64,000 nucleotides of DNA from Chloroflexota bacterium. GTDB lineage: Bacteria; Chloroflexota; Limnocylindria; Limnocylindrales; CSP1-4. Position 1 is the first letter of the stretch. Every line of letters begins with the position of its first letter. Location: contig JADMIG010000001.1 of NCBI GenBank assembly GCA_015478725.1, positions 248,001 through 312,000 on the forward strand, in the 5' to 3' direction. The notes beneath the pieces are model-generated. The model did no database searches, had not been told where the DNA came from, and was given only the letters and a program-made list of their open reading frames with translations. This document shows, piece by piece, positions 15,871 to 63,048 of the stretch. Both the position numbers and the translations under genes were made by a program.

Positions 15871-17133
15871 GTGGCGGGCGATCCTCGCCGCCAGGCGACG
15901 TCGGCGTCGGGCGAGGTCCGCCTCGAAGATCGGCATCGGCCGACCCATGGCCCGCCCTCGTTCGGCGACCACGCGTCCGCGCTCGACGATCGCGAGGGCG
16001 GCGATCGGATCCGTCCACGCGTGCTCGAGCGCCTTCGCGATCTCGACGATCGCGAGCGCCGCGAGGGGACGGCTGGCGGTCGCGAGCTCCCGCCAGGCCG
16101 CGAGCGCCTCCGCGTGGCGGCCGAGGCGCCGCAGGGTCCGAGCCCGCTCTGCGGCGATGCCATCGCGGATCCGTCGCGGATCGGGCGTCAGGTGCGGGTC
16201 CTCGACGCCGCGCGTCCGGGCCGTGGCGTCCCACGCCCGATCCGCGTCGAGAGCGGCGTCGAGGCAGGCGAGGGCCTCCGCGTGCCGACGCTCGCGCCGG
16301 AACAGGCGGGCGACGGCGGCGAGATCGCCGCGATGGGCGCTTCGCCGGAGATCCGGGTCGGCGACCGTCCGGTCGATGTGGGCGAGGAGGGTGGCGAGGG
16401 ACCACACGTCGAGCGCGTTGTGGCGCGCGACGTCCACGAGCGGCCCCGCCGTGCCGCCTCGGAGGAAGGCGAGGTATCGGCCGGGGATCTCGGCTCCCTC
16501 GACGTCGCCACGCCGATGGAGGTCGAGCAGCTCGCGTTCGACGGTGCGGAGTCGCGCATCCGTCATCCGGTGGCGGAATACGCGACGGACGAACGGCAGG
16601 AGATCGAGATGGCCGGCACGGCTCGGGGCAGCGCGGCGGTCCATCCGGAAGCGGGCTTCGAGGAGCGGCCAGTCGAAGCCGTGCCCGTTGTACGTGACGA
16701 GCCAGGCATCGGCGGGCACGAGGTCGGCGAGCGCGCCGAGCATCGCCGGCTCGTCCGGCTGGTCGGGCACGACGAGCTGGACTCGCCGGAACGTCGCACC
16801 CTCCCACCAGCCGATCCCGACCAGGAAGGCGATCGTGCCGGCCGCCGTCGCGAGGCCCGTCGTCTCCGTGTCGAGGCAGACCAGGGGGACCGACGCCGGC
16901 GGCATTCCCGGCAGCAGCGCGAGCCGGCCGCGGTCGAGCGGCACGGTCGTGGGTGGAAGGTCGCAGCGGATGTATCGCCCGCGCGACGTCTCGACGACCT
17001 CGCCGCCGAGCGCGGCGGCGAGTCGAACGGCGGGCGCCTCGCCTTGCGGTTCGAGATGGATCCCGGCCGGCCCCGCCGAGTGGCCCGCTCGATGATTCGC
17101 GAGGCGGCGCTCGAGCGTCGCGTTGGGGCTCAC
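15232..17133 (-). CDS. mrfB: MrfB-like RNase H-fold exonuclease with an abnormal C-terminal extension
   Basis: MrfB (YprB) is the DnaQ-like exonuclease partner of the MrfA helicase in UvrA-independent repair of mitomycin C lesions (known from Bacillus). The N-terminal domain carries CLDTETTGL (DEDD site) and YNGHGFDWPLLEARF, later RHNALDVWSLATLL, then TPR-like helices to about residue 440. The GTG at 17133 overlaps the MrfA stop. The frame stays open about 190 residues beyond the expected end, antisense to the PfkB gene. MrfB relatives are near 400 residues, so the extension probably reflects a lost stop or a sequencing error. Confidence 0.82.
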   Translation of the reverse strand: MSPNATLERRLANHRAGHSAGPAGIHLEPQGEAPAVRLAAALGGEVVETSRGRYIRCDLPPTTVPLDRGRLALLPGMPPASVPLVCLDTETTGLATAAGTIAFLVGIGWWEGATFRRVQLVVPDQPDEPAMLGALADLVPADAWLVTYNGHGFDWPLLEARFRMDRRAAPSRAGHLDLLPFVRRVFRHRMTDARLRTVERELLDLHRRGDVEGAEIPGRYLAFLRGGTAGPLVDVARHNALDVWSLATLLAHIDRTVADPDLRRSAHRGDLAAVARLFRRERRHAEALACLDAALDADRAWDATARTRGVEDPHLTPDPRRIRDGIAAERARTLRRLGRHAEALAAWRELATASRPLAALAIVEIAKALEHAWTDPIAALAIVERGRVVAERGRAMGRPMPIFEADLARRRRRLAARIARHLSAGVPASARKLRDPPLHGLPRGNPGESGTLEDEGRCGGREAQVELCPEPAADEPRLDAGGEERGEEDVAGSGRVDDRRWPDTRPAAHPRRTSGTATQRNAAVRALGEDERRARMQQLAERRERDVRVEVVAAHAHDVRALDDRSAAWSPVADALARRHLAEESLPAGRDERASGDGGGPTVPELVRDSREEPARGVRPGSRDGLVGDAVGG

Positions 17134-19448
17134 CGAACGGTCGCCCCGCCGATCGCGCCGCGCGTGCCGAGCCCGACGATCTCGCCGAGCAGGCGGAGCG
17201 CGGATGCCCTGGCGTCGACGTCGGGTTCGAGGCGGGGGCCGGTGCAAGCAGGGCATCCGGCGTCGCATGGACAGCTCGCGACGAGGCTCGCGGCGCCCTC
17301 GATCAGCTCGTCGTGCCGCTCATACAGGCGTTCGGCGAGCCCCACGCCGCCGGGCACGCCGTCGTAGAGGTAGATCGTGGGGGCCTCGTGGTGCGGTGAG
17401 CGGACCTGGCTGACGAGCCCGAGGTCGCGCGGGTCGACCATGAGCAGGATCGCCGCCACCGCCTGGATCGCCCGCCCGGCCCCGAGGAGCGCGATGTCGA
17501 GCTCGCGCCGCGACCATGCCCCCTGCGGGCGTCCGAGGGTGAGCCAGTAGGCGGTCGTCTGGAGCTCGATCTCCGGCAGGTGGATCCGTCCCCAGCCGAT
17601 GTTCTCGTTCGTCGTGAAGCGGAGCTTCTTGTAGATGGTGGCGAGGCTCGCGACCATCACCTCGCCGTGGGCCCGCGTCCCGCCCGGCACCGGTGCCGTC
17701 GCGAAGACGTCGAGCGGCTTGAGCGTCACCGCGGCGTCAGCCTGCGTGTAGTGCTCGACGTCCACCCGCCGGACGTACGCCTTCCGCTCGTCCCAATCGA
17801 GGCGGTCCACGTGGAACTGCGCCGACTCGTGGAGGTAGATGGCATCCTCGTGGACGAGCGTCGGCGCGGAGAACATGTCGACCTCGCCGATGACCCGCGG
17901 CCGATCGGGTGTCGTGTCCACGATGACGACATTCTCCGAGGCGGCCGTCCGCAGCGAGATCGAGGCGGCGGGGAAGTTCTCCGACGACCAGTACCAGCGA
18001 CCGTCGCCGGCCTGACGGACGTGGCCCTCCTCGGCGAGGAACGCGAGGAGGTCGGCCACGCCGTCGCGCCCGAACCGTTCGTCCGGCTCGAATGGAAGCT
18101 CGAAGGTCGCCGCCTTGAGATGGGCGAGCAGGATGTGGAGGTTGTCGGGGTCCGCCCGCGCCTCCTCCGGCGTGCCGGCGAGGAGGAACTCCGGGTGGTG
18201 GACGATGTAGCGGTCGACGGGTGAACCGGCGGCGACAAGGACGGCGACGCTCACCCCGGACCTCCGGCCTGCCCGGCCGATCTGCTGCCACGTGGCGGCG
18301 ACGGATCCCGGATAACCGGCGAGGATCGCGGCGTCCAGGCGGCCAATGTCGACGCCGAGCTCGAGGGCGTTCGTGCTCACGACCCCGAGCACCTCGCCGT
18401 CGCGGAGGCCTCGCTCGATCGCCCGACGCTCCGTCGGCAGGTACCCGCCTCGATAGCCGCGGATCCGCGATCGGGGGCCGGCATGCTCGCGGAGCGCCTC
18501 GCGGATGCCGGTGAGGAGGAGCTCGACGGCCGTCCGCGATCGACCGAACACGACGGTCTGGCGGTCGGCGCGGAGGAACGGGAGGGCCCATCGCTGGGCC
18601 AGGGTGAGGGCCGATCCCCGGGCGCCGGTGGCGGGATCGAGGAGCGGCGGTTCGACGAGGAGGAGATGCCGCTCGCCGGACGGCGCCCCGTTGCGGGTGA
18701 CGAGCTCCACCGGCCGGCCGGTGAGGAGGCCGGCGAGCTCGGCCGGGTTCCCGATCGTCGCGGAGCAGCAGACGATGACCGGGTGCGAGCCGTAGTGGGC
18801 GCACAGGCGGAGGAGTCGACGCAGCACGTTCGCGACGTGGCTGCCGAATACGCCGCGATACGTGTGCAGCTCGTCGATGACGATGTACCGCAGCTGCTCG
18901 AAGAGCTGGAACCACTTCGTGTGGTGGGGGAGGATCGATGCGTGGAGCATGTCCGGGTTGGTCACCACGACCTGCCCGGCGTCACGGATCGTGGACCGGA
19001 TGGGGGCCGGCGTGTCGCCGTCGTAGGTCGCCGTCGAGACCGTCAGGCCGGCCGCTCCGGCGAGGGCCGAGAACTCGGCGACCTGGTCCTGACCGAGGGC
19101 CTTCGTCGGGAAGAGCCAGAGCGCGCGAGATCCGGGATCATCCGCGATCGCCTGGAGCGTCGGTATCGCATAGCACAGCGTCTTGCCCGACGCCGTGGCC
19201 GTGACGACGACGGTGTCGCGCCCGGCGCGGATCGCGTCGATCGCCTCTGCCTGGTGCGTGTAGAGCCGATCGATGCCGCGCGTCCGAAGACCGGCGGCGA
19301 TGCGGGGATCCAGCCACGACGGCAGGTCCTCCCAGGCGGCTTCGCGAGCGGCGATCGTCTCATGGTGGACGACGGTCGCGGCGAGCGACGGCTCAGCGAG
19401 GATCCTCGCGAGCACGGCAGCGGTATCGAGCGGGGCGTAGGTCCGCAA
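17130..19448 (-). CDS. mrfA: MrfA-like DEAD/DEAH helicase with DUF1998 zinc domain
   Basis: A 772-residue superfamily 2 helicase (YprA/MrfA, related to yeast Hrq1) that works with MrfB in mitomycin-lesion excision. Motifs: TATASGKTLCYAIPT (Walker A variant), VIDELHTYRGVFGSHVANV (DELH), CCSATIGNPAEL, and QQIGRAGRRSG. The C-terminal DUF1998 region ends with SCPCDAGCPACTGPR, the zinc-binding cysteines. I chose the TTG at 19448 because a strong GGGAGGAG lies six bases ahead. A longer frame begins at 19571 but lacks such a site. B. subtilis MrfA is similar in length. Confidence 0.9.
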   Translation of the reverse strand: MRTYAPLDTAAVLARILAEPSLAATVVHHETIAAREAAWEDLPSWLDPRIAAGLRTRGIDRLYTHQAEAIDAIRAGRDTVVVTATASGKTLCYAIPTLQAIADDPGSRALWLFPTKALGQDQVAEFSALAGAAGLTVSTATYDGDTPAPIRSTIRDAGQVVVTNPDMLHASILPHHTKWFQLFEQLRYIVIDELHTYRGVFGSHVANVLRRLLRLCAHYGSHPVIVCCSATIGNPAELAGLLTGRPVELVTRNGAPSGERHLLLVEPPLLDPATGARGSALTLAQRWALPFLRADRQTVVFGRSRTAVELLLTGIREALREHAGPRSRIRGYRGGYLPTERRAIERGLRDGEVLGVVSTNALELGVDIGRLDAAILAGYPGSVAATWQQIGRAGRRSGVSVAVLVAAGSPVDRYIVHHPEFLLAGTPEEARADPDNLHILLAHLKAATFELPFEPDERFGRDGVADLLAFLAEEGHVRQAGDGRWYWSSENFPAASISLRTAASENVVIVDTTPDRPRVIGEVDMFSAPTLVHEDAIYLHESAQFHVDRLDWDERKAYVRRVDVEHYTQADAAVTLKPLDVFATAPVPGGTRAHGEVMVASLATIYKKLRFTTNENIGWGRIHLPEIELQTTAYWLTLGRPQGAWSRRELDIALLGAGRAIQAVAAILLMVDPRDLGLVSQVRSPHHEAPTIYLYDGVPGGVGLAERLYERHDELIEGAASLVASCPCDAGCPACTGPRLEPDVDARASALRLLGEIVGLGTRGAIGGATVR

Positions 19449-19601
19449 GACTCGCTCCTCCCAGGTGATATCGAACGGATGTGCGGTTCGGAGTGTACGC
19501 CACACGGTCAGCCGCGTTCGTGACAGGTCACCTGGCACGCGTCCACAGGCACGCGTACCGTGGTTTGACACGCCAGCTGCCCGCAGCTAGCATCCGGCCC
19601 G

Positions 19602-47907: not shown

Positions 47908-49271
47908 GGCCGCCCGGCGCCCCGGAACCGAGACTGGCTCTCGCCCGCCCCCTCAGCCGCCGCCAGCTCCTCCAGGCGGGCTCGCTCGGCGCGGTGGCGC
48001 TCCTCCTCGGGGAGGCGTGCGGGACGCAAGCCAAGGACACGCCGCCTGCAACGGCAGTCCCTGCATCGACCGCCACGCCAGTTGCCACGCCTGCCAGCGC
48101 ATCGCCCCCTTCTACCTCGTCGGTCGCTCCGTCGGTCGAGCCCGCGAGCCCGCCCCCGCTGCTGCCCACACCCACGTTACGGGAGCTGGCGGATCGCGCC
48201 CACGTCACGATCGGCTCACAGGTCGTCACCTACGGTCTCGACAGTTCGGATCGCTACCGACGTGCGGCCCCCGAAATAGCCAACCTGCTCGCCATCGACG
48301 GGGAACTGGACATACGACGGGTCTTCTCGGGGCTTGACTGGCGGACCATTCCGCAGCACTGGCCGGAGGTGTCCGCCGCGCTGTCGGCCGGCCGGATTCC
48401 GTACGAGGACCAGCTCAATTTCTCGGCCGCCGATGCGCTCATCGGCTTCGCCGAACGGAACGGCATGCGGGTGCATGCCCAGCATTTGCTGTGGCCGCAG
48501 GACATGCCGACGGACCTGACTGCGGGAGCGGCTTCGCCCGACGCCATCCTCAAGGTGGTCCGATTCTTTGTCCAGGCGCGGGTGCTCCGCTACAAGGGCC
48601 GGATCCAATCGTGGAGCGCGGTGAACGAGGTCGCCGGGGGGCGCCTGTACGGTGACGCCCGCTACAAGTATTGGTACGGGAGCCCGTTCAGCGACGAGCT
48701 GATCCGCAGCGTGTTCGAATGGGCCCATGCGGCCGATCCACATGCAGCGCTCCTGCTGAACGAGAACAACGTCGTCGAGCTCGACAACCCGACCTACGCA
48801 CCGGTCGCCGCCGGGTTCATTCGCCTGCTATCGGAGCTGAAGAGCGGCGGTGTCCCGGTCTCGGTCGCCGGTCTTGAGAACCACCTCTGGATCTACGATC
48901 CCCCGACGCTGGCGTCGATGGAGACGTTGATCAGGGAGGTGCATGGTCTTGGACTTCGCGCGATGGCTACCGAGACCACCGTGGCGATGAGCGAGCATTA
49001 CCCCTTCTGGAGCGGAAGACCCAAGAGACTGCCATCCGTGCCGAACCGGCTGACCGCCCAGGCGAACCTATACCGGAACGCGCTCCAGGCGTGCATCGAC
49101 ACCGGGTCGGTCTTCTGCATGTTCGGGTTCACGGACGCCGTCTCGCTGTTCGACAGTAACAACATCCACATCCCGGACGCGCAGGGCCTCATCCTCGACG
49201 CGAACTACTCTCCCAAGCCTGCCTACTTCGCGCTGCTCGATGTCCTGAAGCAGAAGGCGGGCCTGGGCTGA
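47904..49271 (+). CDS. Exported GH10-type glycoside hydrolase (gene 3)
   Basis: A 455-residue protein with a GTG start overlapping the gene 2 stop. Tat signal with lipobox (SRRQLLQAGSLGAVALLLGE, then AC). Glu242 in SWSAVNEVAGG is the acid/base and Glu357 in MATETTVAM the nucleophile, so it should be active. Shares the layout of gene 1 and ends NYSPKPAYFALLDVLKQKAG, like gene 2. Confidence 0.86.
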   Translation: MRPPGAPEPRLALARPLSRRQLLQAGSLGAVALLLGEACGTQAKDTPPATAVPASTATPVATPASASPPSTSSVAPSVEPASPPPLLPTPTLRELADRAHVTIGSQVVTYGLDSSDRYRRAAPEIANLLAIDGELDIRRVFSGLDWRTIPQHWPEVSAALSAGRIPYEDQLNFSAADALIGFAERNGMRVHAQHLLWPQDMPTDLTAGAASPDAILKVVRFFVQARVLRYKGRIQSWSAVNEVAGGRLYGDARYKYWYGSPFSDELIRSVFEWAHAADPHAALLLNENNVVELDNPTYAPVAAGFIRLLSELKSGGVPVSVAGLENHLWIYDPPTLASMETLIREVHGLGLRAMATETTVAMSEHYPFWSGRPKRLPSVPNRLTAQANLYRNALQACIDTGSVFCMFGFTDAVSLFDSNNIHIPDAQGLILDANYSPKPAYFALLDVLKQKAGLG

Positions 49272-51235
49272 TGGAGCCCGCTGTGCTCCTCACCCGCCGC
49301 CAGCTGCTCCAGGCCGGCTCGCTCGGCGCGGTGGCGCTGTTCCTCGGGGAGGCATGCGGGACGGCTCCGCTGCCGAGCCCGGCCGAGAGCGCGAGTCCGC
49401 TCACCCCGTCGCCCGCCTCGCCGGCCCCCTCGTCGATCCCGCCGCTCGATGGGGCTGCGCTCACCGACGCGGTGTCCGCCCTCGGGACGGCCGACACACT
49501 CACCGTTCCCGGTGGTGTCGCCCTCGCGGTGATCGACCTCGAGGCGGCGGGTGAGGCCGTGGCCAGGGCCGGCGGCTCGGGCGGGTTGCCCGAGCGCGAC
49601 CCGGTCGCGGCGCTCGGCTACCTCCTCGCCGCGGTCGACTGGTCGGGCGTGACCGGCGCGGTGGAGCTCGGCCGGTTCTTCCCGAACCTCTCGCTCCCGC
49701 TCGTCCGCCTCCCTCTCGCCCGCCTGCCCGACGGGGGACCGACGACGGTGATCGCGGCTGCCCTCCCGGCGGGGCTCACCGTCCGGACCGGTGCAGCCCT
49801 CCTCGTCGTGAGCCACCTCGCCGAGGGGACGTATCTCATCGCGATCGATGATCCGGCCCGGCCGATCGACGGCAATCCGCGGCTCGAGCTCGGGGTCGTG
49901 CCCGCCGCGGCGCTCAGCCCGCTCCTCGCGGTCGCCGGCGCCCGGCTCGACGCCGCCAGCGGCGCGGTCGTCCTCGCCGATGGCACGGGCGTCACGCTCC
50001 GGCCGCTCACGGCGAGCCTCGCCGACCGCCTCACCGCTGCCGCGGGCGTCCTCTTCGTCGATCGGGTGCCACTCCAGCCGAAGGGGGCGAAGACCCCGCT
50101 CCTCACGGTCGACCCCTACGTGCCGGCGCCGGGCCCGAGCGTCGTGACTGGCGCCACGCGTGTTGCGCCTGCCGCCGACGGCCGGGTCCTGGCACTCAAC
50201 GCCGCGGGCACGGCGGTCGGGCGGGCGCAGTACATCGGGGGCGCGACGCCCTGGAGCTGGCTGGGCAAGGATGGGCTTGATTGGACCCTCCGCGAGCTGG
50301 CGGATCGGATCGGCTGGCGGGTGGGGGTCGAGCTCACGGGCTGGGAGTTCAATGACCAGCACTGGCAGTCGATCGTGCGGGCCCAGTTCAACCAGGGTCT
50401 CCTCTCCTGGGGGCTCGACTGGAACGAGGTCGAGCCCGCCCGCGGCCAGTACGACTTCTCGGTCATGGATCGGCTGGTCGCCTTCGCGCAGGCCAACGGT
50501 ATGCGTGTGCGGGCCGACTCCGTCGTGTTTGGGCATACGTCGATGCTGCCATCGTGGCTCGTGCAGGGCCACTTCTCCGCTGCGCAGCTGACGGCAATCC
50601 TGCAGGCGCACGTGCGCGCGGTTGTCAGCCAGTACCGCGGCGTCATCGCCGAGTGGGTCGTGGTGAATGAGCCGTACGTCGCGCCCTACTCCACCGACGA
50701 TCTCTTCTATCAGGCGCTCGGCTACGACTACATCGACGTGGCCTTCGCGGCCGCCCGCAAGGCCGACCCGTCGGCCGTGCTCAACTTCAGCGACACCGCG
50801 AACCACACGGCGGCGGGCATCACTACGAACCTGACCATGCAGACTGTGACCAGGCTAGAGGCGAAGGGCCTGGTCGACATCGTGGGCCTGCAGATGCACC
50901 TCGACGGGGCCAACCCGCCCGATCCCACGGACGTGCGCGACACGATGCGCCGGTACGGCTTGCCGGTGGCCGTCACCTCGCTCGACATCGACCTCTCCGA
51001 CGTGCCCGGCACGCTCGCTGACCGGTACGCTGTTCAGGCGAAGATCGCGGCATCGATGCTGCGGGCCGCGCGCGACTCCGGCGTGTGCCGCGACTTCAGC
51101 GTCTGGGGGATCGGTGATGGCGTGGCCGACAGGTGGCTCCAGCGTCCGGGCGCGCCGGCGCCGACAGCGACGCCGTTCGACGGCCAGCTCCGGCCGAAGC
51201 CCTTCTTCTCGGCACTGCTCAAAGGAATGTCGTGA
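49271..51235 (+). CDS. GH10-like protein lacking the catalytic nucleophile (gene 4)
   Basis: A 654-residue Tat lipoprotein (TRRQLLQAGSLGAVALFLGE, then AC) with the same N-terminal domain as gene 2. Its ATG overlaps the gene 3 stop (TGATG). The acid/base Glu467 (WVVVNEPYV) is kept, but the nucleophile position is Ser570 in VAVTSLDIDL, where gene 2 has Glu. It is therefore predicted to be inactive as a retaining glycosidase; it may bind polysaccharide. Confidence 0.85.
   Translation: MEPAVLLTRRQLLQAGSLGAVALFLGEACGTAPLPSPAESASPLTPSPASPAPSSIPPLDGAALTDAVSALGTADTLTVPGGVALAVIDLEAAGEAVARAGGSGGLPERDPVAALGYLLAAVDWSGVTGAVELGRFFPNLSLPLVRLPLARLPDGGPTTVIAAALPAGLTVRTGAALLVVSHLAEGTYLIAIDDPARPIDGNPRLELGVVPAAALSPLLAVAGARLDAASGAVVLADGTGVTLRPLTASLADRLTAAAGVLFVDRVPLQPKGAKTPLLTVDPYVPAPGPSVVTGATRVAPAADGRVLALNAAGTAVGRAQYIGGATPWSWLGKDGLDWTLRELADRIGWRVGVELTGWEFNDQHWQSIVRAQFNQGLLSWGLDWNEVEPARGQYDFSVMDRLVAFAQANGMRVRADSVVFGHTSMLPSWLVQGHFSAAQLTAILQAHVRAVVSQYRGVIAEWVVVNEPYVAPYSTDDLFYQALGYDYIDVAFAAARKADPSAVLNFSDTANHTAAGITTNLTMQTVTRLEAKGLVDIVGLQMHLDGANPPDPTDVRDTMRRYGLPVAVTSLDIDLSDVPGTLADRYAVQAKIAASMLRAARDSGVCRDFSVWGIGDGVADRWLQRPGAPAPTATPFDGQLRPKPFFSALLKGMS
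50075..50128 (+). repeat. 54-base block shared with GH10 gene 2
   Basis: Identical copy of 46690-46743. Confidence 0.85.
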
Positions 51236-54375: not shown

Positions 54376-55386
54376 GTGATCGGCTCGGAGCAGCTTGCGA
54401 AAGTTCTGGAAGCCGGCGTTGAAACACTGTCCGTGGACTTCAAGCTGCGACTCGACTGGTCGAAGTCGAGGCGGAACAAGCTCGAGACCGCCAAAGACAT
54501 CGCGTGTCTGGCGAACCGGGACGGCGGTCTCCTCGTTATCGGCGTTCCGGACAAACCGACGATCGCAGGCGTTGGGCTCGCTGATGACGATGTGCTCCCC
54601 GATGTCACGCAGCTCAATGAGTTCGTCCAGCAGTACTTCGATCCGCCGATCCCCGCGGAAATCCGGATCATCGACGTGGCCGGGACTCCCTACGGGGTGA
54701 TCGCGGTCCCTCCCTTCGCGCGCGAGCCGCACATCTGCTCGAAGGACGGACAGGACGAGGAGAAGGAGCTCATCGTCCGAAACGGCGATGTGTACGTCAG
54801 GTCGGATGCCATGGACTGTCGGCGCGCTCGCGGACCAGAGATGCGGTCGCTGATCATCCGAGCGGTCGCGGCAACAGGTGAGGCGATCCGCCTCATGCTC
54901 GCGCCGTCGTCCGGGTTATCGGCGGCCCAGGCGTCCAGCGATTCGCATCCGATCGCGTCGCCGGCTCTGCAGCGGTACCCGACCCTTCAGGCAGCGGATC
55001 TGCGACCCGTTCCCGAACCACCTGCGCGACGGATTCGCGAGCTTGAGACCCTGCTCTCGAATGCAGCAATCCTCGCCCGATCGGGCGACGCACTGATTCC
55101 CCGCTACCTCAATCGACTCGGCGGCGGTGAAGGGGTCATGATCCGTCAGCCGAGCCGCGTGATCTTTGAAGCGGAGATCGGGGAAGCGGGAATCGGGGAG
55201 GACGACCGACGGATACTGAGCGTCACGGAGGCTTCGAGAACGCTCAAGCTTCGCATCCGCGAGAGTCTATGGGAGGACGCGAGCAACATCCCGGGCCTCC
55301 GCGGCCAGGCCGTGGACATCGAGAGTCTCGCGGCGTTCACATTGGGCTCGTTCTCGTGGCGCCTCTTGGCCGGAGGCTGTGGATGA
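54376..55386 (+). CDS. AlbA_2 (Schlafen-type) ATP/DNA-binding domain protein
   Basis: A 336-residue protein. Residues about 15-140 carry the Schlafen AlbA_2 domain: VDFKLRLDWSK, KDIACLANRDGGLLVIGVPD and VIAVPPFAREPHICSK with VYVRSDAMDCRRA. Such proteins are frequent in defence islands and anti-phage systems. The C-terminal half is unrecognised. Its stop overlaps the next start. Confidence 0.8.
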   Translation: MIGSEQLAKVLEAGVETLSVDFKLRLDWSKSRRNKLETAKDIACLANRDGGLLVIGVPDKPTIAGVGLADDDVLPDVTQLNEFVQQYFDPPIPAEIRIIDVAGTPYGVIAVPPFAREPHICSKDGQDEEKELIVRNGDVYVRSDAMDCRRARGPEMRSLIIRAVAATGEAIRLMLAPSSGLSAAQASSDSHPIASPALQRYPTLQAADLRPVPEPPARRIRELETLLSNAAILARSGDALIPRYLNRLGGGEGVMIRQPSRVIFEAEIGEAGIGEDDRRILSVTEASRTLKLRIRESLWEDASNIPGLRGQAVDIESLAAFTLGSFSWRLLAGGCG

Positions 55387-55702: not shown

Positions 55703-55805
55703 GTGAAGACGACCGTCCTCTACTACGGCGATGAACCTCGTCTGCCTCGATCCGCCGTTCAACAGCAACCGCGACGGCTACTCGCGCCAGACAGATCCTG
55801 ACTGA
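55703..55805 (+). pseudogene. Remnant of a DNA methyltransferase N-terminus
   Basis: GTG at 55703 gives VKTTVLYYGD, the usual opening of type III-like adenine methyltransferases. A frame offset then gives NLVCLDPPFNSNRDGY (55734-55781), which contains the DPPF catalytic motif IV. The normal spacer of about 15-20 residues between the two is missing, and the frame ends at the methylase start (TGATG). It is a decayed fragment. Confidence 0.7.
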
Positions 55806-58800
55806 TGGATCTCGGGCGCGAGCCGCTCCTCCGCGACGTTTCCGTCGTCGGTGGCCGTGCGACGCGGATCTGGCAGGGACAACTCAACGCCGCGGGCGTC
55901 GGGATCGAGATCGCCGAGGTCGCGCTCGACCAGAATCCGACGCCCCCTCGCATGCGGCAGGTCTGGCTCGCGCGTCGCGCCGGTCAGGCTCGGCCCGTGA
56001 TCGTGTTCACGATGCTGGGCCCGGATCAGGTCCTCGTCTGCGGTCCAGAGGGAACACCGCCTCCGGTCGCGACCATCCCCCTGAGCCTCGCCGAGCGCAT
56101 CTTCGCGAGCGTCCTCAACGAGCTGCCCGTCCCGGCGACTCGGCGAGCGATCGACTTGATCAACCGCGCCCAGGGCAGCGGACAGGTTCCGGGGTTCCGC
56201 AACCGCGGTCTCGTCAGCACCCACTACGTGACCCAGGTGATCCGCCGTGAGGCGCGGCCCGACTGGACCGAGGCGGCCGAGGGGGGGGATCGAGCCCTCG
56301 GCCAGGTCGGCGAGGCGCTGATCCGCGCCCTCGGGTATCGCCTCGAGACGACCGGCCCGAAGGAGTACCGGGTCCAGGACGGTGGCACCGCGGTCGCGCT
56401 GGCGCATGTCTACGACGACGGGGCGAGCCTCGACCGGGTCGGGGCCGGCCAGGCCGCACCGCCATCAGCGATCGCTCTCAAGCGCGCCCGCGAACTTGGG
56501 CTCGACCATGCGCTGCTCGTCGCCGGATCGCTCTTGCGGATCTACTCGCTGCGCGGCGAGGAGTCGCTCGACGAAGGCGCGGCCTCGGCCGCGTATGTCG
56601 AGTTCGACACGAGCCTTCTGCCGGCGAGTTGGGCGCCACTGCTCGGCGCCCTCGCGGCCCCGGACGCTCTCCGACCGAATGGCCGCCTCGAACGCATCCG
56701 GTCAGGATCGGGCCGATATGCCGTCGGCCTCCGCGAGCGGTTCACCGAGCGCCTCTACGAGGATGTCGTCGACCGACTCGTGCGCGGCATCGATGCGGCG
56801 GCACGGGCACGCGTCGATCCCCGCCCCAACGAGGGTGAGCTGTACCGGGCGACCCTCGTCGTGCTCTTCCGGCTCCTCTTTCTCCTCTACGCCGAGGATC
56901 GCGACCTCCTCCCGATGGGGAACGCCGAGTACGGGACGCACTCGATCACCCGAATGGTCATCTCATCCGCCGAACGCCAGCGGTCCGGCCAGGCCTTCGA
57001 TCCCACAGCCACGAGTCTCTGGTCCGAGCTGAACCAGCTCTTCGCGGCCGTGGCGCACGGGAATGCCGACTGGGGCGTTCCGCCGTACGACGGAGGCCTG
57101 TTCGCGGACGACGGCCTCGATGGTGGGCTCCTGCGCCGGATCGAGCTACCGAACGCCGTCGTCGGCCCGGCACTCGTCGCGCTCGGCTGGGATGTCGGTC
57201 CGGACGGCCAGGCGGGCAAGGTCGACTTCGGCGATCTCGGCGTCCGCCACATCGGGACGATCTACGAGGGACTCCTCAGCTACGAGGTCGCGTTCGCCAC
57301 TCAGAACCTGCGCATCGACCGCCGCGCGGAAGGGGAGCCGTACGTGGCGGCGGGGCCCGGAGAGGCGGTCGACGTCCCGGTCGGTGCGCCGCACATCCGC
57401 TCGCCACAGGGTGGGCGCAAGGCGACGGGCTCCTACTACACCCCGGTGTTCGCGGTCGATCGGCTCATCGACAAGGCCCTTCGGCCCGCGATCGATGAGC
57501 ACCTGGGTCGCGTCGGCGACGATCTCGATCTGCCGGCCGCGACGCTCTTCGACTTCCGCGTTGCCGATATCGCGATGGGCTCCGGCCACTTCCTCGTGGC
57601 CGGGCTCGACGCGCTGACCGAGCGGTACGCCGCTTATCTCGCGGCGCATCCGAACCGAGCAGTCCGTGCAGAGCTCGAGCGGGCCCGTGAGCGGCTCAAC
57701 ATCGTGGGCGATGGCTATGGCGCCCCGCAGCTCGGGGATCGGGTCGCCGACGTTGATCTCCTTCGCCGGATCGTCCTGAAGCGCTGCATCTACGGCGTCG
57801 ACTACAACGCGATGGCCGTCGAGCTGGCGCGGCTCGGGCTGTGGCTCCACAGCCTCGTTCCGGGGTTACCGCTGAGCTATCTGGGAGCGAACCTCCAACA
57901 CGGCAACTCGCTGGTCGGAGTCGGCGGCGACGTTCCGATGATCGGGCTCTTTGCCCTGGTCTATGAGGAAGAGGCGCGAGGGCGCGCCGCCGAGGTCGCA
58001 TCGATCGATGATCTTGAACTGGGCGACATCGCTCGTGGGCGCGAGCTCGAACTCGAGCTCGCACAGGCGACGGCCGGGCTCCACGACTACTACGACGTCG
58101 CGACGGCCGGGCCGCTTCTCGATGAGAGCCTGAGTACGCTCGAGCAGCTCTATGCCGAGCAGATTATCGAGGGCAAGCTCACGACCGGCATGGAGCCCGT
58201 GCTCAGCCGGGCCCGGCGTGCAGCGCGAGACCAGACCGCGCTCCACTGGCGGCTCGCGTTCCCAACCGTCTTCTTGCGCCGAGATCGTCCGGGCTTCGAC
58301 GTCATCGTGGGTAATCCGCCGTGGGAAGAGGTGACCGTCGAGCGACTCGGCTTCTACGCTCGGCACCTGCCCGGGATCAAGAGCGTCAAGTCGCAGGCCG
58401 AGCAGGAGCGCCGGATCGCGGAGTTCGAGGCGACCTATACGACCGTCCGAGAGCGCTACGAAGCTGAGGTGGTCGACAAGCTGGCGCTCCGTCGATACCT
58501 GGCGGCGAAGTACACGCTCACGAAGAGCGGCGACCCCGACCTGTACAAGGCGTTCGCCGAGCGGTTCCTCGACCTCGTCCGCGACGGAGGGCAACTGGGC
58601 GTCGTCCTTCCACGAAGCGCCTTTGCCGGAGATGGCACGACCCCGTTCCGCGAACGCCTCCTTGGCAGCGCTGGAAAGACGTTGCTCGATGTCCTCCAGA
58701 ACAGCGGGGGCTGGGTCTTTCCTGACGCAGAGCATCGGTACACGATCGTCCTGGTCGCCGCGAAGGTCGGGCAGGCCGATGTACGGACCTTGTCGGTGTC

Positions 58801-59806
58801 GGCGGTCGCGGCCGACCGGGAAGCCTTCTTGCGGATCGATACCGAGCGGACCGAGTGGACGCTGGAGCAGCTTCGTGTCCCGCATCCTGACCTAGCGGTT
58901 CCGCTGCTGCCGTCGGCCGCCGCAGCCCGCCTCTACCAGCGGGTCGTGACGAGCCATCCTCGCTTCGACTCTGGGAAGGGCGGCTGGCGCGCCGTGCCTT
59001 GGGCTGAGCTCCACGTCACCAACGACCGCAAGTCCGGCCTGTTGAAGGAACCCGGGGCAGTAGCCGGCGAGGTCTGGCCCGTATACGGTGGCAAGTCGTT
59101 CGATCTCTGGGAACCCGAGCTCTGGAAACGGGACGGCGAACCCGGCTTTGTTCTCGAGCCGGAGGTCGGCCTTCCTGAACTTCAGCGAAAGCGCCAAGGG
59201 TCCAGTGTCTGGCGAGCCTACTTCCTTCCCGACGTCCTCCGCGACCCGAAAACGATGCCGCACCATGGCCCGCGAATCCTGTTTCGCGACATCACGAACC
59301 GCACCAACTCCCGGACCGCGATCGCATGCCTGGCGCCGCCCCATGTGTTCGCGCACAACAAGGCGCCTTCGTTGTTGTGGCCGAAGGGAGATGAACGCGA
59401 TCAGGCGTACCTGTTGGGCGTCATGGCGTCCGTTCCCTTCGATTGGTTCGCCCGTCGCAGGGTCGAACTGAACATGAACTACTTCATCCTCAACAGCCTG
59501 CCGGTGCCTCGTCCGCCGCGGGACGATCCACTCCGCGAGCGCGTCGTGACTCTGGCCGGTCGGCTTGCCTGCGTCGACGAGCGATACGCTGACTTTGCTG
59601 CCGCCGTCGGTGTCCCCGTCGGGCCCGTTGAGCCTCGGGAGAAGGCGGCGATGATCGCCGAGTTGGACGCGGTCGTCGCGCGCCTCTACGGGCTCGATCA
59701 CGATGAACTCGAGTTGATGTTCGAGGACTTCCCGGCGACCGAGGCGGGCGTCTCGCCCGGCCGGCGGGCCGTGGTCCTTGAGAACTTCGATCGGTGGACG
59801 ACGTGA
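55805..59806 (+). CDS. Eco57I/PglX-like adenine DNA methylase of the defence type
   Basis: A 1333-residue protein. The large N-terminal domain (about 1-500) is unrecognised. Then KATGSYYTPVFAVDRLIDKA (about 540), motif I IAMGSGHFLVAGLDAL (about 590), catalytic motif IV VIVGNPPWEEV (N837), and a target-recognition region with WPVYGGKSFDLWEPELWK. The C-terminus LAHNKAP..NMNYFILNSLPVP resembles type IIG and PglX proteins. Coupled to the PLD-SNF2 gene. Confidence 0.85.
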   Translation: MDLGREPLLRDVSVVGGRATRIWQGQLNAAGVGIEIAEVALDQNPTPPRMRQVWLARRAGQARPVIVFTMLGPDQVLVCGPEGTPPPVATIPLSLAERIFASVLNELPVPATRRAIDLINRAQGSGQVPGFRNRGLVSTHYVTQVIRREARPDWTEAAEGGDRALGQVGEALIRALGYRLETTGPKEYRVQDGGTAVALAHVYDDGASLDRVGAGQAAPPSAIALKRARELGLDHALLVAGSLLRIYSLRGEESLDEGAASAAYVEFDTSLLPASWAPLLGALAAPDALRPNGRLERIRSGSGRYAVGLRERFTERLYEDVVDRLVRGIDAAARARVDPRPNEGELYRATLVVLFRLLFLLYAEDRDLLPMGNAEYGTHSITRMVISSAERQRSGQAFDPTATSLWSELNQLFAAVAHGNADWGVPPYDGGLFADDGLDGGLLRRIELPNAVVGPALVALGWDVGPDGQAGKVDFGDLGVRHIGTIYEGLLSYEVAFATQNLRIDRRAEGEPYVAAGPGEAVDVPVGAPHIRSPQGGRKATGSYYTPVFAVDRLIDKALRPAIDEHLGRVGDDLDLPAATLFDFRVADIAMGSGHFLVAGLDALTERYAAYLAAHPNRAVRAELERARERLNIVGDGYGAPQLGDRVADVDLLRRIVLKRCIYGVDYNAMAVELARLGLWLHSLVPGLPLSYLGANLQHGNSLVGVGGDVPMIGLFALVYEEEARGRAAEVASIDDLELGDIARGRELELELAQATAGLHDYYDVATAGPLLDESLSTLEQLYAEQIIEGKLTTGMEPVLSRARRAARDQTALHWRLAFPTVFLRRDRPGFDVIVGNPPWEEVTVERLGFYARHLPGIKSVKSQAEQERRIAEFEATYTTVRERYEAEVVDKLALRRYLAAKYTLTKSGDPDLYKAFAERFLDLVRDGGQLGVVLPRSAFAGDGTTPFRERLLGSAGKTLLDVLQNSGGWVFPDAEHRYTIVLVAAKVGQADVRTLSVSAVAADREAFLRIDTERTEWTLEQLRVPHPDLAVPLLPSAAAARLYQRVVTSHPRFDSGKGGWRAVPWAELHVTNDRKSGLLKEPGAVAGEVWPVYGGKSFDLWEPELWKRDGEPGFVLEPEVGLPELQRKRQGSSVWRAYFLPDVLRDPKTMPHHGPRILFRDITNRTNSRTAIACLAPPHVFAHNKAPSLLWPKGDERDQAYLLGVMASVPFDWFARRRVELNMNYFILNSLPVPRPPRDDPLRERVVTLAGRLACVDERYADFAAAVGVPVGPVEPREKAAMIAELDAVVARLYGLDHDELELMFEDFPATEAGVSPGRRAVVLENFDRWTT

Positions 59807-62800
59807 CCGGCGAGCGCCGCGAGTTCATCGACAACCGCGACGCGAATACCGTCGCCGAGGCGATCCGCCAGGCCGGCGCGTATTACGGCCACTCGCGCGA
59901 GATCGCAATCGCCTCAGGCTACTTCAATCTCGGCGGCTTCTCGGTCATCGCCGACGCGCTCGAGGCCGCCCCGCGGGTCCGGATCCTTCTCGGCTCCGAG
60001 CCCGAACCGCCGCGCCCACGCCGCACGGTCCTGCCGGGGACACCGCCTACTGAGCAGCCGCTCCGGGAGCGGCTCGGCGAGCTGCGGGCATCATTGGAAG
60101 CCGATCGCGACCTGGTCCCATTCGCGCCCGATGCCGTCAATGCGGTCGAGCGCCTTGTGGCGTTCCTCGACCGCCCGACGACCGAGGTCAAGATCTACCG
60201 ACGCGAGTTCCTGCACGGAAAGGCGTTCATCTTCGGCGACGAGGCCGGCGTCCTCGCCGGCTCCGCCAACTTCACCGCGGCGGGCCTCCTCCACAATCTC
60301 GAACTCGATCTCGGCGCCTATGCGCCGCACCAGGTCAAGGCTGCTCGCGCCTGGTTCGACGATCTTTGGGAGCAAGCCGAGCCGTTCGATCTAGCCGGCG
60401 TGTACCGGGCCCTCGAAATCGACTACGACCCGCACACCATCTACCTGCGGATGCTCTACGAGCTGTACGGCGCCGAGTTGGCCGAGGAGGTTGACGAGCT
60501 GCCGCGCACGCCCGGCGCGACGCTCCAACTGACCGAGTTCCAACGACTCGGTGTGACTCGGGCGCTCCGGATCCTCGACCGCTGGGGCGGCGTGCTGATC
60601 GCCGACGGGGTCGGCCTTGGCAAGACCTTCACCGCCGGTGGGCTCATCGAGTTCCACCTGCAAGCGAAAGGCTGGCGCGTGCTGGTCGTGGCCCCGGCCA
60701 GCCTGCGCGACGCGAACTGGGAAGGCTTTCTCGCCGCCCACACGAAGTACGCAGTCGAGGTGGTGTCCTACCAGGAACTCGCCAACGACCTCCAGGTCGG
60801 CGACCCGCCGGAGCCGGGACGTGCCGACGGGCGTAAGGCGCACCTCAAGCTCGATGCGTCGGAGTACCGCTGCATCGTCATCGACGAGGCGCACGCCTTC
60901 CGTTCGTCCGAGACGACCTACTACAGGGCGCTGCGTCGCCTGATGGCCGCGGGCGGGGTCGAGAAGCGGCTCATCATGCTCACCGCAACCCCGGTGAACA
61001 ACAGCCTCTGGGACCTCTACTGGCAGCTACTGCTCTTCGCCAGGACCGAGAGCCGCTTCGCTGAGATCGGCATCGCGAACCTTCGCGAGTACATCGTTCG
61101 AGCGCTGGGGCTTGACCTCGAGGCGCTGACCCCGGCACATCTCTTCCCGCTCCTGGACGCCGTATCGGTGCGCCGGACCCGAACACACATCAAGCGGTTC
61201 TTCCCGGGTGCGACGCTCAACACCCCCGAGGGACCCGTCCCGCTCATCTTCCCAACGCCCAAGCTCCATCGCGTTGGTTACGACTCCGCCCGTCCCGCCG
61301 ACGCGGCGAACGCCGGTGAGTTCTTCGACCAGGTCGCGACTGCGATTGGCGGCGGCTTGTCGATGGCCCGCTATCAGCCAGACCTCTACCGCCTCGGTGG
61401 CGAAGGCGCACCGGCCCAGCAGGTCACGAGCGCTCTACTGCTCAGCCAGCTCCTCAAGCGGTTCGAGTCGAGTCTCGAGGCCTTCCGGCGAACGCTCGGG
61501 AAGATGATCGGGTCGCACGACCGCTTCCTCGAGATTCTCGATCGCGGGTACGTTGCGGTTCCCCGGGTGTCACCGGAGGCGTTCGACGCGGGGCTCGACG
61601 ACGCGGAGCTCGACATGCTCCTCGTCGAAGACCCGAACGCGCGGCCGACCAGCGAGTACCTCGCCGCCGATCTGCGTGCGAGGGTTGTCGCGGACCGCGA
61701 TCTGTTGCGGACGCTGCTGACGCGTGCGACGACGATTGACGCGGCCCACGACCCAAAGCTCGACGCATTGCTCGACACGCTGGCGCGGATCGACGGAGCC
61801 GCCACGCATGCGGACGAGCGCAAGGTGGTCCTGTTCAGCTATTTCGCAGACACCGTTGACTACCTCCACCGGTTCCTCGAGACGACTTCCGATCCGCGGA
61901 TGGCTCGCTACCGCAGCCGGATCGGCGTTACCACGGGAGCGGCGAGTTCCGAGACCCGCCAACACATCGTCTGGTCCTTCGTCCCATTGTCGTCGGGCGC
62001 CCCGCCCGGAACCGCCGAGGAGATCGATCTGATGCTCTCGACGGACGTGCTTGCCGAGGGCCAGAACCTTCAACAGGCCGGCACGGTCATCAACTTCGAC
62101 CTGCCCTGGAACCCGATGCGCCTCGTCCAGCGGAACGGCCGCGTCGACCGGATCGGATCGAAGCACGACGTCGTTCACCTGTACACGTTCTTCCCCGACC
62201 AGGAGTTGGATCGACTGCTGGATCTGGAAGCCAACCTGCGGCGGAAGATCGCCCAGGCGAACGCCGCGGTCGGGGTCGAGACCGTCGTCATTCCGGGCGA
62301 TGACCCAGTCGAGCGCGTGTTCGATGACACCCGTGCCGAGATCGAGCGGATCGCCGCAGAGGATGCGGGCTTCATCGACGAGAAGGAGGCCGAGCTGGAC
62401 GCGTTCAGCGGGGAGGTCTTCCGTGAGGAGCTGCGGCAGGCGCTCATGCAGGCTCGCGAGGGCGAGCTCAAGTCGCTGCCGTGGGGCATCGGGTCCGGGT
62501 TCCGAGCCGCGCGGCCCAGCGGTGTCGTCTTCGCCGCCCGGGCCGGCTCGCGCGTCGAGTGGCGGTTCGTGCCGTTCGACGCGGGCGATCTATCGTCCGA
62601 CCGTCTCGCGCTGCTCGGGCTCGCTCGCTGTTCCGAGATGACGGCACGCAATCTGCCGGATGACGTTCGCGCCCGACTGTTCGAACTGTGGGATCTTGCC
62701 CGTGATGCGATCCTCGCCGATCGCCAGGCCGAGCTCGATCCAGCGACGCGTGCCGCCGCGGTGCCGAAGGCCCAGCGCGACGCCGTGTCGCTGTTGTTCG

Positions 62801-63048
62801 CCGCGATGATGATCGAGCCCGCCGTCCAGGAACGCGTCATCGAGGCGCTCCAGGCTCCGTGGCCCTTGACGGTCAGTCGAGCCCTGCGGGGGATCCTTGA
62901 TCGCCCGGATGCCTCGGACTCAGCGAGGGTCGACCAGATCGTCGCCTATGTCGAGGGCGAGGGTCTGCGGGCGCCGCGCGTTCCGGTGGAACCGGCCGTC
63001 GGGCGCGACGACATCCATCTCGTGTGCTACCAAGTCGTCACGGCATAG
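59794..63048 (+). CDS. PLD-nuclease/SNF2-type helicase fusion
   Basis: About 1084 residues. N-terminal PLD domain: FLHGKAFIFGDEAGVLAGSA then NFT (about 138-158), a single HKD motif. The SNF2/SWI2 helicase core has GVGLGKTFTAGGLIEFH (about 272), VIDEAHAFRSSETTYY (DEAH), LTATPVNNSLWDLYW, DVLAEGQNLQQAGTVINFDL and RLVQRNGRVDRIGSKHDVVH. The GTG at 59803 overlaps the methylase stop by four bases and may be the true start. Pairing of these domains recalls DISARM DrmD/DrmMI and related systems. Confidence 0.86.
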   Translation: MDDVTGERREFIDNRDANTVAEAIRQAGAYYGHSREIAIASGYFNLGGFSVIADALEAAPRVRILLGSEPEPPRPRRTVLPGTPPTEQPLRERLGELRASLEADRDLVPFAPDAVNAVERLVAFLDRPTTEVKIYRREFLHGKAFIFGDEAGVLAGSANFTAAGLLHNLELDLGAYAPHQVKAARAWFDDLWEQAEPFDLAGVYRALEIDYDPHTIYLRMLYELYGAELAEEVDELPRTPGATLQLTEFQRLGVTRALRILDRWGGVLIADGVGLGKTFTAGGLIEFHLQAKGWRVLVVAPASLRDANWEGFLAAHTKYAVEVVSYQELANDLQVGDPPEPGRADGRKAHLKLDASEYRCIVIDEAHAFRSSETTYYRALRRLMAAGGVEKRLIMLTATPVNNSLWDLYWQLLLFARTESRFAEIGIANLREYIVRALGLDLEALTPAHLFPLLDAVSVRRTRTHIKRFFPGATLNTPEGPVPLIFPTPKLHRVGYDSARPADAANAGEFFDQVATAIGGGLSMARYQPDLYRLGGEGAPAQQVTSALLLSQLLKRFESSLEAFRRTLGKMIGSHDRFLEILDRGYVAVPRVSPEAFDAGLDDAELDMLLVEDPNARPTSEYLAADLRARVVADRDLLRTLLTRATTIDAAHDPKLDALLDTLARIDGAATHADERKVVLFSYFADTVDYLHRFLETTSDPRMARYRSRIGVTTGAASSETRQHIVWSFVPLSSGAPPGTAEEIDLMLSTDVLAEGQNLQQAGTVINFDLPWNPMRLVQRNGRVDRIGSKHDVVHLYTFFPDQELDRLLDLEANLRRKIAQANAAVGVETVVIPGDDPVERVFDDTRAEIERIAAEDAGFIDEKEAELDAFSGEVFREELRQALMQAREGELKSLPWGIGSGFRAARPSGVVFAARAGSRVEWRFVPFDAGDLSSDRLALLGLARCSEMTARNLPDDVRARLFELWDLARDAILADRQAELDPATRAAAVPKAQRDAVSLLFAAMMIEPAVQERVIEALQAPWPLTVSRALRGILDRPDASDSARVDQIVAYVEGEGLRAPRVPVEPAVGRDDIHLVCYQVVTA

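Follow-up and report, generated by a model that had tools for sequence, protein, structure and literature searches.

A mobile methylase and PLD-SNF2 gene pair as a probable two-gene ATP-dependent restriction-modification system

Background

SauUSI is a type IV restriction enzyme that carries a PLD nuclease, an SF2 helicase and an SRA domain on one chain, and its active site is formed from two subunits (PMC7913695). CglI and NgoAVII are three-gene ATP-dependent restriction-modification (RM) systems in which the nuclease and a B3 recognition domain lie on the R protein, the ATPase on H and the methylase on a separate M protein (PMC4267653, PMC5737866). In type-2 BR systems, an HKD nuclease is placed N-terminal to a Swi2/Snf2 helicase and accompanied by an N6 methylase, and a DUF499 ATPase and DUF3780 are the defining components (PMC12839542); COG1743-DUF499-SNF2 operons have also been described (PMC7641849). 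ARMADA requires a YprA-family helicase and has a BrxHII/RapA-like helicase adjoining a PglX-like methylase (PMC12458937). Here we describe a pair of adjoining genes in a 64,000-nucleotide stretch of DNA (the window) from a Chloroflexota bacterium of the order Limnocylindrales (assembly GCA_015478725.1, contig JADMIG010000001.1, positions 248,001 to 312,000). The first gene encodes an Eco57I-family methylase (MT), and the second a protein that joins a PLD nuclease to an SNF2/RapA-like motor (HE). Their domain content, mobility and co-inheritance suggest, with a probability of about two in three, a mobile two-gene ATP-dependent RM system in which MT would supply specificity and protection, and HE translocation and cutting.

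Results and discussion

A conserved gene pair

The preliminary description of this DNA reported a 1333-residue Eco57I methylase coupled to a PLD-SNF2 protein, and this account holds. Both open reading frames (ORFs) are intact, the 3' end of MT and the 5' end of HE share 13 nt in different frames, and the expected Pfam domains score above their cut-offs. Upstream of each gene the first in-frame stop comes shortly before the start codon assigned here, and inspection of these upstream frames found no earlier ATG, GTG or TTG start for either gene. Of the span first proposed for the module (55703-63048), the end is correct but the start is not, because MT begins about 100 nt further downstream. The intervening DNA, directly 5' of MT, is a decayed gene with an internal deletion whose frames read YYGD and LDPPFNSNR, motifs presumably typical of a different DNA methylase family. 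This remnant lies outside the module and is unrelated to MT. Coordinates are collected in Table 1.

HE relatives were gathered from 400 genomes of the same phylum, 84,980 species genomes, viral contigs and 72,556 plasmid records, and alignments were made of 28 HE homologues and 19 MT members. An MT-family methylase precedes HE on its strand at each of the 26 loci where enough DNA is available upstream (L054, L008 and L061, where the sequence ends before the place of MT, are left out of this count). The recurrence of the pair at 26 of 26 testable loci, with the same conservation pattern, argues that the pairing does not arise by chance. When the plasmid records were searched both ways, MT and HE occurred in exactly the same 6 of 72,556, and close matches to both in the phylum survey fall in the same genomes except for G056, whose contig stops at MT. 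The pairwise distances of 19 MT and 19 HE proteins are also strongly correlated (mirror-tree r = 0.93), a value reached in 0 of 20,000 permutations. The two genes overlap or abut at most loci, frequently by a 4-nt overlap. MT and HE are thus a conserved unit inherited together, in several bacterial phyla and in archaea, so the lack of co-inheritance that the preliminary description had named as a refutation is not observed. An all-against-all comparison of flanking ORFs found no conserved third gene, only antisense shadows of MT and HE and genes common to a few, mostly close, relatives.

Hosts of the pair include Chloroflexota, Actinomycetota, Gemmatimonadota, Planctomycetota, Acidobacteriota, Pseudomonadota, haloarchaea and a Nitrososphaera, and it was not found among the 20 same-family genomes listed. 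In the HE tree, 27 of 28 window-type rows from several phyla form one clade (SH-aLRT 100), within which the HE proteins of haloarchaeal plasmids nest among bacterial ones. The patchy spread of the pair and its carriage on plasmids argue that it is mobile. A search of 50,697 phage records returned one weak match only. In IMG/VR the pair is present on three contigs, which may be integrated elements because one of them (L131) has an integrase beside the pair. The genome under study encodes a second MT-HE pair (L031:7612-15092, G000 contig C4; 35% and 39% identity), and the two pairs belong to separate lineages of the HE clade. Since the second pair is placed independently, two lineages coexist in this genome, perhaps with different specificities.

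The nuclease-motor protein

HE scores above the Pfam cut-offs for PLDc_2 (34.9; cut-off 27), SNF2-rel_dom (51.1; 24.9) and Helicase_C (58.1; 23.5), and its best PADLOC model is C3a139, 'HKD+Snf2'. The PLD residues, which had been singled out beforehand as a test of the first reading, are complete in HE, and H141, K143, S157, N159 and E170 are unchanged in 28/28 homologues. They form a single HxK...SxN...E motif per chain. When the PLD domains of these 28 proteins are searched as a profile against solved structures, the closest is SauUSI (7clg, E = 2.6e-10), followed by BfiI (2c1l, 1.7e-7) and R.NgoAVII (4rct, 0.007), all three of them restriction nucleases of the PLD type. The motor motifs G274xGK277, DEAH (364-367), TATP (397-400) and motif VI Q779RxGR783 are unchanged, or nearly so, in the 28 sequences. 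For HE as modelled by AlphaFold, with a mean pLDDT of 82.1, the top PDB fold match is RapA (8spg, E = 1.7e-16). RapA alignments cover nearly the whole model, so the C-terminal region is probably inside this match. No SRA, B3, EVE or other recognition or modified-base domain was found in HE by the Pfam scan.

The methylase

The Eco57I Pfam domain of MT scores 73.6 bits (cut-off 25.3), and residues 47-1309 match the PADLOC family PDLC03620 (REase_MTase_IIG) at 575 bits; 19/19 full-length MT relatives match this family too. Within the S-adenosylmethionine (SAM)-binding motif I, D588, A590, G592, S593, H595 and F596 are unchanged across 19 members. Mean pairwise column identity is 0.5-0.6 in the blocks around the catalytic motifs, whereas it is mostly 0.24-0.34 at about residues 950-1200. 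By analogy with type IIG and PglX enzymes, this variable region is a candidate target-recognition region.

An Eco57I-type methylase with an IIG-like full-length architecture is one mark of type IIG enzymes, and MT has it. The pair could therefore be read as an autonomous type IIG enzyme, MT, with HE as an accessory or chance neighbor, and the match of MT and all its relatives to PDLC03620 favors this reading. However, the domain that would have to cut is the N-terminal one. Ten of its positions are kept in at least 90% of the 19 members (G80, G130, L136, A198, R245, L280, L289, G293, L309 and L313), but no set of acids and lysines (D/E/K) fit for a nuclease center was found in residues 1-350 of this alignment, and the N-terminal profile matched no nuclease, and nothing else significantly, in the PDB. 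With no nuclease triad conserved in this part of MT, cutting most likely occurs in HE, through its PLD domain. HE is also beside MT at every testable locus and their trees mirror each other, which makes an autonomous MT unlikely.

A dead PD-(D/E)XK domain was considered for the MT N-terminus. The predicted model has an alpha-beta-beta-beta-alpha-beta order in residues 169-248, and hydrophobic residues occupy the place of ExK. Since neither fold nor profile searches gave a significant match, a decayed PD-(D/E)XK is only a suggestion, and it was set aside.

Comparison with known systems

The preliminary description took DISARM as its reference and set the fused PLD and missing DrmA and DrmB of the pair against it. 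That contrast stands, although DISARM is not where the nearest relatives lie. Class 1 DISARM (DrmMI, DrmD and DrmABC) shares an SNF2 helicase and an Eco57I/PglX-like methylase with the pair, but its PLD is on a separate protein, whereas in HE it is fused. The proposed profile comparison gives HE 172.7 bits against the DrmD model NF038317 (cut-off 610), and full-length DrmD proteins of the same phylum score >1000 bits; the five examined have no PLD and branch apart from HE in the tree. MT matches DrmMI at 239 bits and is nearer to PDLC03620. No DUF1998 protein (DrmA/DrmB-type) occurs at the MT-HE loci checked, where the pair recurs without such genes, and none above cut-off is present on pair-bearing plasmids. 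The sole DUF1998/MZB protein above cut-off in the genome under study is a MrfA/Hrq1-type DEAD-box helicase 38 kb away in the window. The low DrmD score, the PLD-free true DrmD proteins and the lack of DrmA and DrmB at the loci together rule out class 1 DISARM.

The type-2 BR helicase, with its N-terminal HKD nuclease fused to Swi2/Snf2, is the closest described architecture to HE. DUF499 (PF04465) is not beside any MT-HE pair in the 20 genomes or records searched, which rules out membership in the DUF499/Hma/BR group. For DUF3780, no conserved third gene is present among the flanking ORFs, the DUF3780 profile itself not having been run across the loci. Some MT-HE genomes do encode DUF499 proteins away from the pair, including the genome under study, on another contig (C29). 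There, a DrmD-like helicase lies about 7 kb before the DUF499 ATPase (G000:C29:6264-16753, L239), probably as a separate Hma/BR-type system. With ARMADA the pair shares a RapA-like helicase and a PglX-like methylase, but no DUF1998-type YprA helicase was found beside it at the loci checked. Nor did a conserved neighbor point to other BREX or ARMADA parts, with the PglZ and BrxC profiles not run over all neighbors.

These likenesses raise the possibility that the pair is related to DISARM, ARMADA, BREX or DUF499 BR, either as a stripped-down form or as an ancestral one, and acts with chromosomal partners elsewhere. The partial homology to DrmD and DrmMI, the combination of an HKD-Snf2 fusion with an N6 methylase in type-2 BR (PMC12839542), and the DUF499 protein with its DrmD-like helicase on contig C29 are all compatible with it. 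Yet neither DUF499 nor DUF1998 is adjacent to the pair at the loci checked, plasmids that bear the pair encode no DUF1998 protein above cut-off, true DrmD proteins are PLD-free and branch apart, and the pair travels alone on plasmids. We consider such a dependence on distant partners quite improbable.

SauUSI, the closest PDB match of the PLD profile, shares with HE an N-terminal PLD fused to an SF2 translocating ATPase. It differs from the pair in having its own SRA domain, in cutting methylated DNA and in consisting of one polypeptide with no methylase partner; in HE no recognition domain was detected, and a methylase always adjoins it. If HE acted as a type IV-like enzyme, its target would, as for SauUSI, be modified DNA of foreign origin, and MT would have another purpose, for instance marking or a competing modification. 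That the nearest solved PLD relative is itself a modification-dependent chain of PLD and SF2 helicase (PMC7913695) fits this idea, but no SRA, EVE or other modified-base domain is recognized in HE, and one would not expect a type IV enzyme to have a conserved methylase partner whose C-terminal region varies. A type IV-like role thus seems very doubtful.

CglI and NgoAVII, which are NTP (nucleoside triphosphate)-dependent, have in common with the pair a PLD nuclease, a helicase-like ATPase and a methylase; in the pair, nuclease and motor are in one protein and there are two genes only. A methylase, an SF2 translocase and an endonuclease domain are encoded together here, as expected of an ATP-dependent RM system. 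The nearest described systems are ATP-dependent RM and DUF499 BR rather than DISARM, and the nearest nucleases are those of SauUSI, BfiI and NgoAVII. A DNA-repair or transcription-linked pair with no defense role, which the RapA-like motor could suggest, is highly implausible given the patchy distribution, plasmid carriage, cross-domain spread and nuclease fusion, all of which point to a mobile, conflict-related function.

Opposite gene order and larger loci

The two-gene logic recurs with the opposite gene order. More distant HKD-SNF2 proteins, about 24-30% identical to HE and mostly about 1060-1080 residues long, precede an Eco57I methylase in Clostridia, Bacilli, Bacteroidota, Pelagibacteraceae, Alphaproteobacteria, Fibrobacterota, candidate phyla and one viral contig. 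The methylase is downstream at 18/18 loci with enough downstream sequence, mostly with a gap of <=10 nt. It lies within about 10 nt at L066, L068, L070-L076, L078, L079, L082, L087 and L135, at 40 nt in L081, and about 1.1 kb away in L083 and L088. This methylase belongs to another type IIG-like family, PDLC03596, in 3/3 tested. In the tree, most of the reversed-order HKD-SNF2 proteins (17) form their own clade apart from the window-type clade. The PADLOC models C3a139 and PDLC03620/PDLC03596 match both halves in both configurations and are held as separate models.

A third HKD-SNF2 group, from larger loci, sits nearer to the window type in the tree. Larger loci of this kind in Chloroflexota (L041, L040, L043, L048, L042 and L045) are possibly multi-gene variants. 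Their contents vary and include an AAA_5 gene with a 740-residue gene, a second N6 methylase with DUF5655, or, as a neighbor, a very long ORF (about 2,500 residues).

Proposed mechanism

The C-terminal half of MT would recognize a DNA sequence and methylate an adenine there, which would mark host DNA as self. HE would be the effector. Because the region resembling a target-recognition domain is in MT and no recognition domain was detected in HE, it is most likely MT that directs HE to unmethylated sites or licenses it there, probably through contact between the two proteins. The RapA/SNF2-like motor of HE would then move along DNA. The cut that restricts invading DNA would be made by a PLD active site to which two HE subunits contribute, on the model of SauUSI and BfiI. 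This division of labor is comparable to that of type III systems, except that the effector is a PLD nuclease with an SNF2 motor. The conserved catalytic sets, the co-inheritance and the patchy, plasmid-borne distribution are observed. Adenine as the methylated base, MT as the reader of the sequence, its contact with HE, translocation, dimerization and restriction of invaders are all inferred, and domain content, mobility and co-inheritance suggest the defense role.

Several observations weigh against an MT-HE system of this kind. Unrelated genes (trypsin-like, DUF5131, HNH and M78/XRE) separate MT from HE at L055, L058, L063, L131 and L033; strict coupling is therefore dispensable. Some metagenome-assembled MT genes are broken over frames (L055, L056, L060, L063 and L034), which may reflect sequencing error or decay. 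A PDB fold search with the N-terminal model of MT gave no significant match and did not identify its fold, and no obvious defense island was seen around the pair in the window.

Features of the locus

Upstream of MT in the window is a gene for a Schlafen/AlbA_2 domain protein with a weak match to the PADLOC candidate PDC-S50, and further upstream is one for a xylanase-like protein. At two other loci another restriction gene directly overlaps HE at its 3' end, and such neighbors favor the restriction reading. One, in a Microbacteriaceae, encodes a GmrSD-RAMA protein (L059:13315-15459), and the other, in Euzebya, an annotated phosphorothioate-DNA endonuclease (L234:12375-13223).

Table 1. Window coordinates of the MT-HE pair, its domains and motifs, and other genes mentioned in the text
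Feature	Position	Strand	Basis or remark
MT, 1333-residue Eco57I-family N6-adenine methylase, PADLOC PDLC03620	55805..59806	+	ATG start
MT N-terminal domain, residues 1-350	55805..56854	+	True type IIG enzymes have their nuclease domain here
MT SAM-binding motif I, DFRVADIAMGSGHFL, residues 583-597	57551..57595	+	19-member alignment
MT catalytic motif IV, NPPW, residues 837-840	58313..58324	+	N837, P838, P839 and W840 unchanged in 19
MT variable C-terminal region, about residues 950-1200, candidate target-recognition domain	58652..59404	+	Column identity
HE, 1084-residue PLD nuclease and SNF2/RapA-like translocase	59794..63048	+	GTG start
HE PLD nuclease domain, residues 10-215	59821..60438	+	H141xK143, S157xN159, E170
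HE SNF2/RapA-like two-lobe ATPase core, residues 245-830	60526..62283	+	Motif alignment
HE C-terminal region, residues 831-1084	62284..63045	+	Pfam scan blank
Remnant of another methylase gene	55703..55799		Frames reading YYGD and LDPPFNSNR
Schlafen/AlbA_2 domain protein	54376..55386		Weak match to PDC-S50
Glycosyl hydrolase family 10 (xylanase-like) protein	49271..51235		Lipoprotein-like N-terminus
MrfA/Hrq1-type DEAD-box helicase	17130..19571	-	DUF1998/MZB above cut-off

Novelty and significance

In public plasmid annotation MT is a 'hypothetical protein' and HE a 'helicase-related protein' or 'helicase, SNF2 family'. No published name for the pair was found in open-access full text, with REBASE and most subscription journals outside this search, and the pair may have been recognized earlier in unpublished work or in a database. 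The preliminary description's view of a compact, under-described module is borne out by two genes with no conserved third and no matching named system found. The kind of system, ATP-dependent RM-like defense, is known, but, as far as could be tested, the arrangement as two proteins and the breadth of its occurrence are undescribed. What is new here is the pairing of two halves that PADLOC holds apart, and profile builders could merge these existing models into one system call.

It is an evenly balanced question whether the window-type and reversed loci together represent an unnamed, widespread class of two-component ATP-dependent RM, in which an IIG-like methylase cedes the nuclease role to a PLD-SNF2 protein. 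Such a class would comprise two or more lineages that differ in gene order, MT-HE and HE-MT, in bacteria and archaea, and many entries listed as stand-alone 'type IIG' enzymes would be its specificity halves. If this is true, part of the 'type IIG' catalogue space is mis-assigned, and these methylases would guide a nuclease-motor instead of being cutters themselves. With two genes, the pair would be among the smallest known ways to join recognition, protection, translocation and cutting, and, as a system moving on plasmids across both prokaryotic domains, it would be relevant to barriers to gene transfer.

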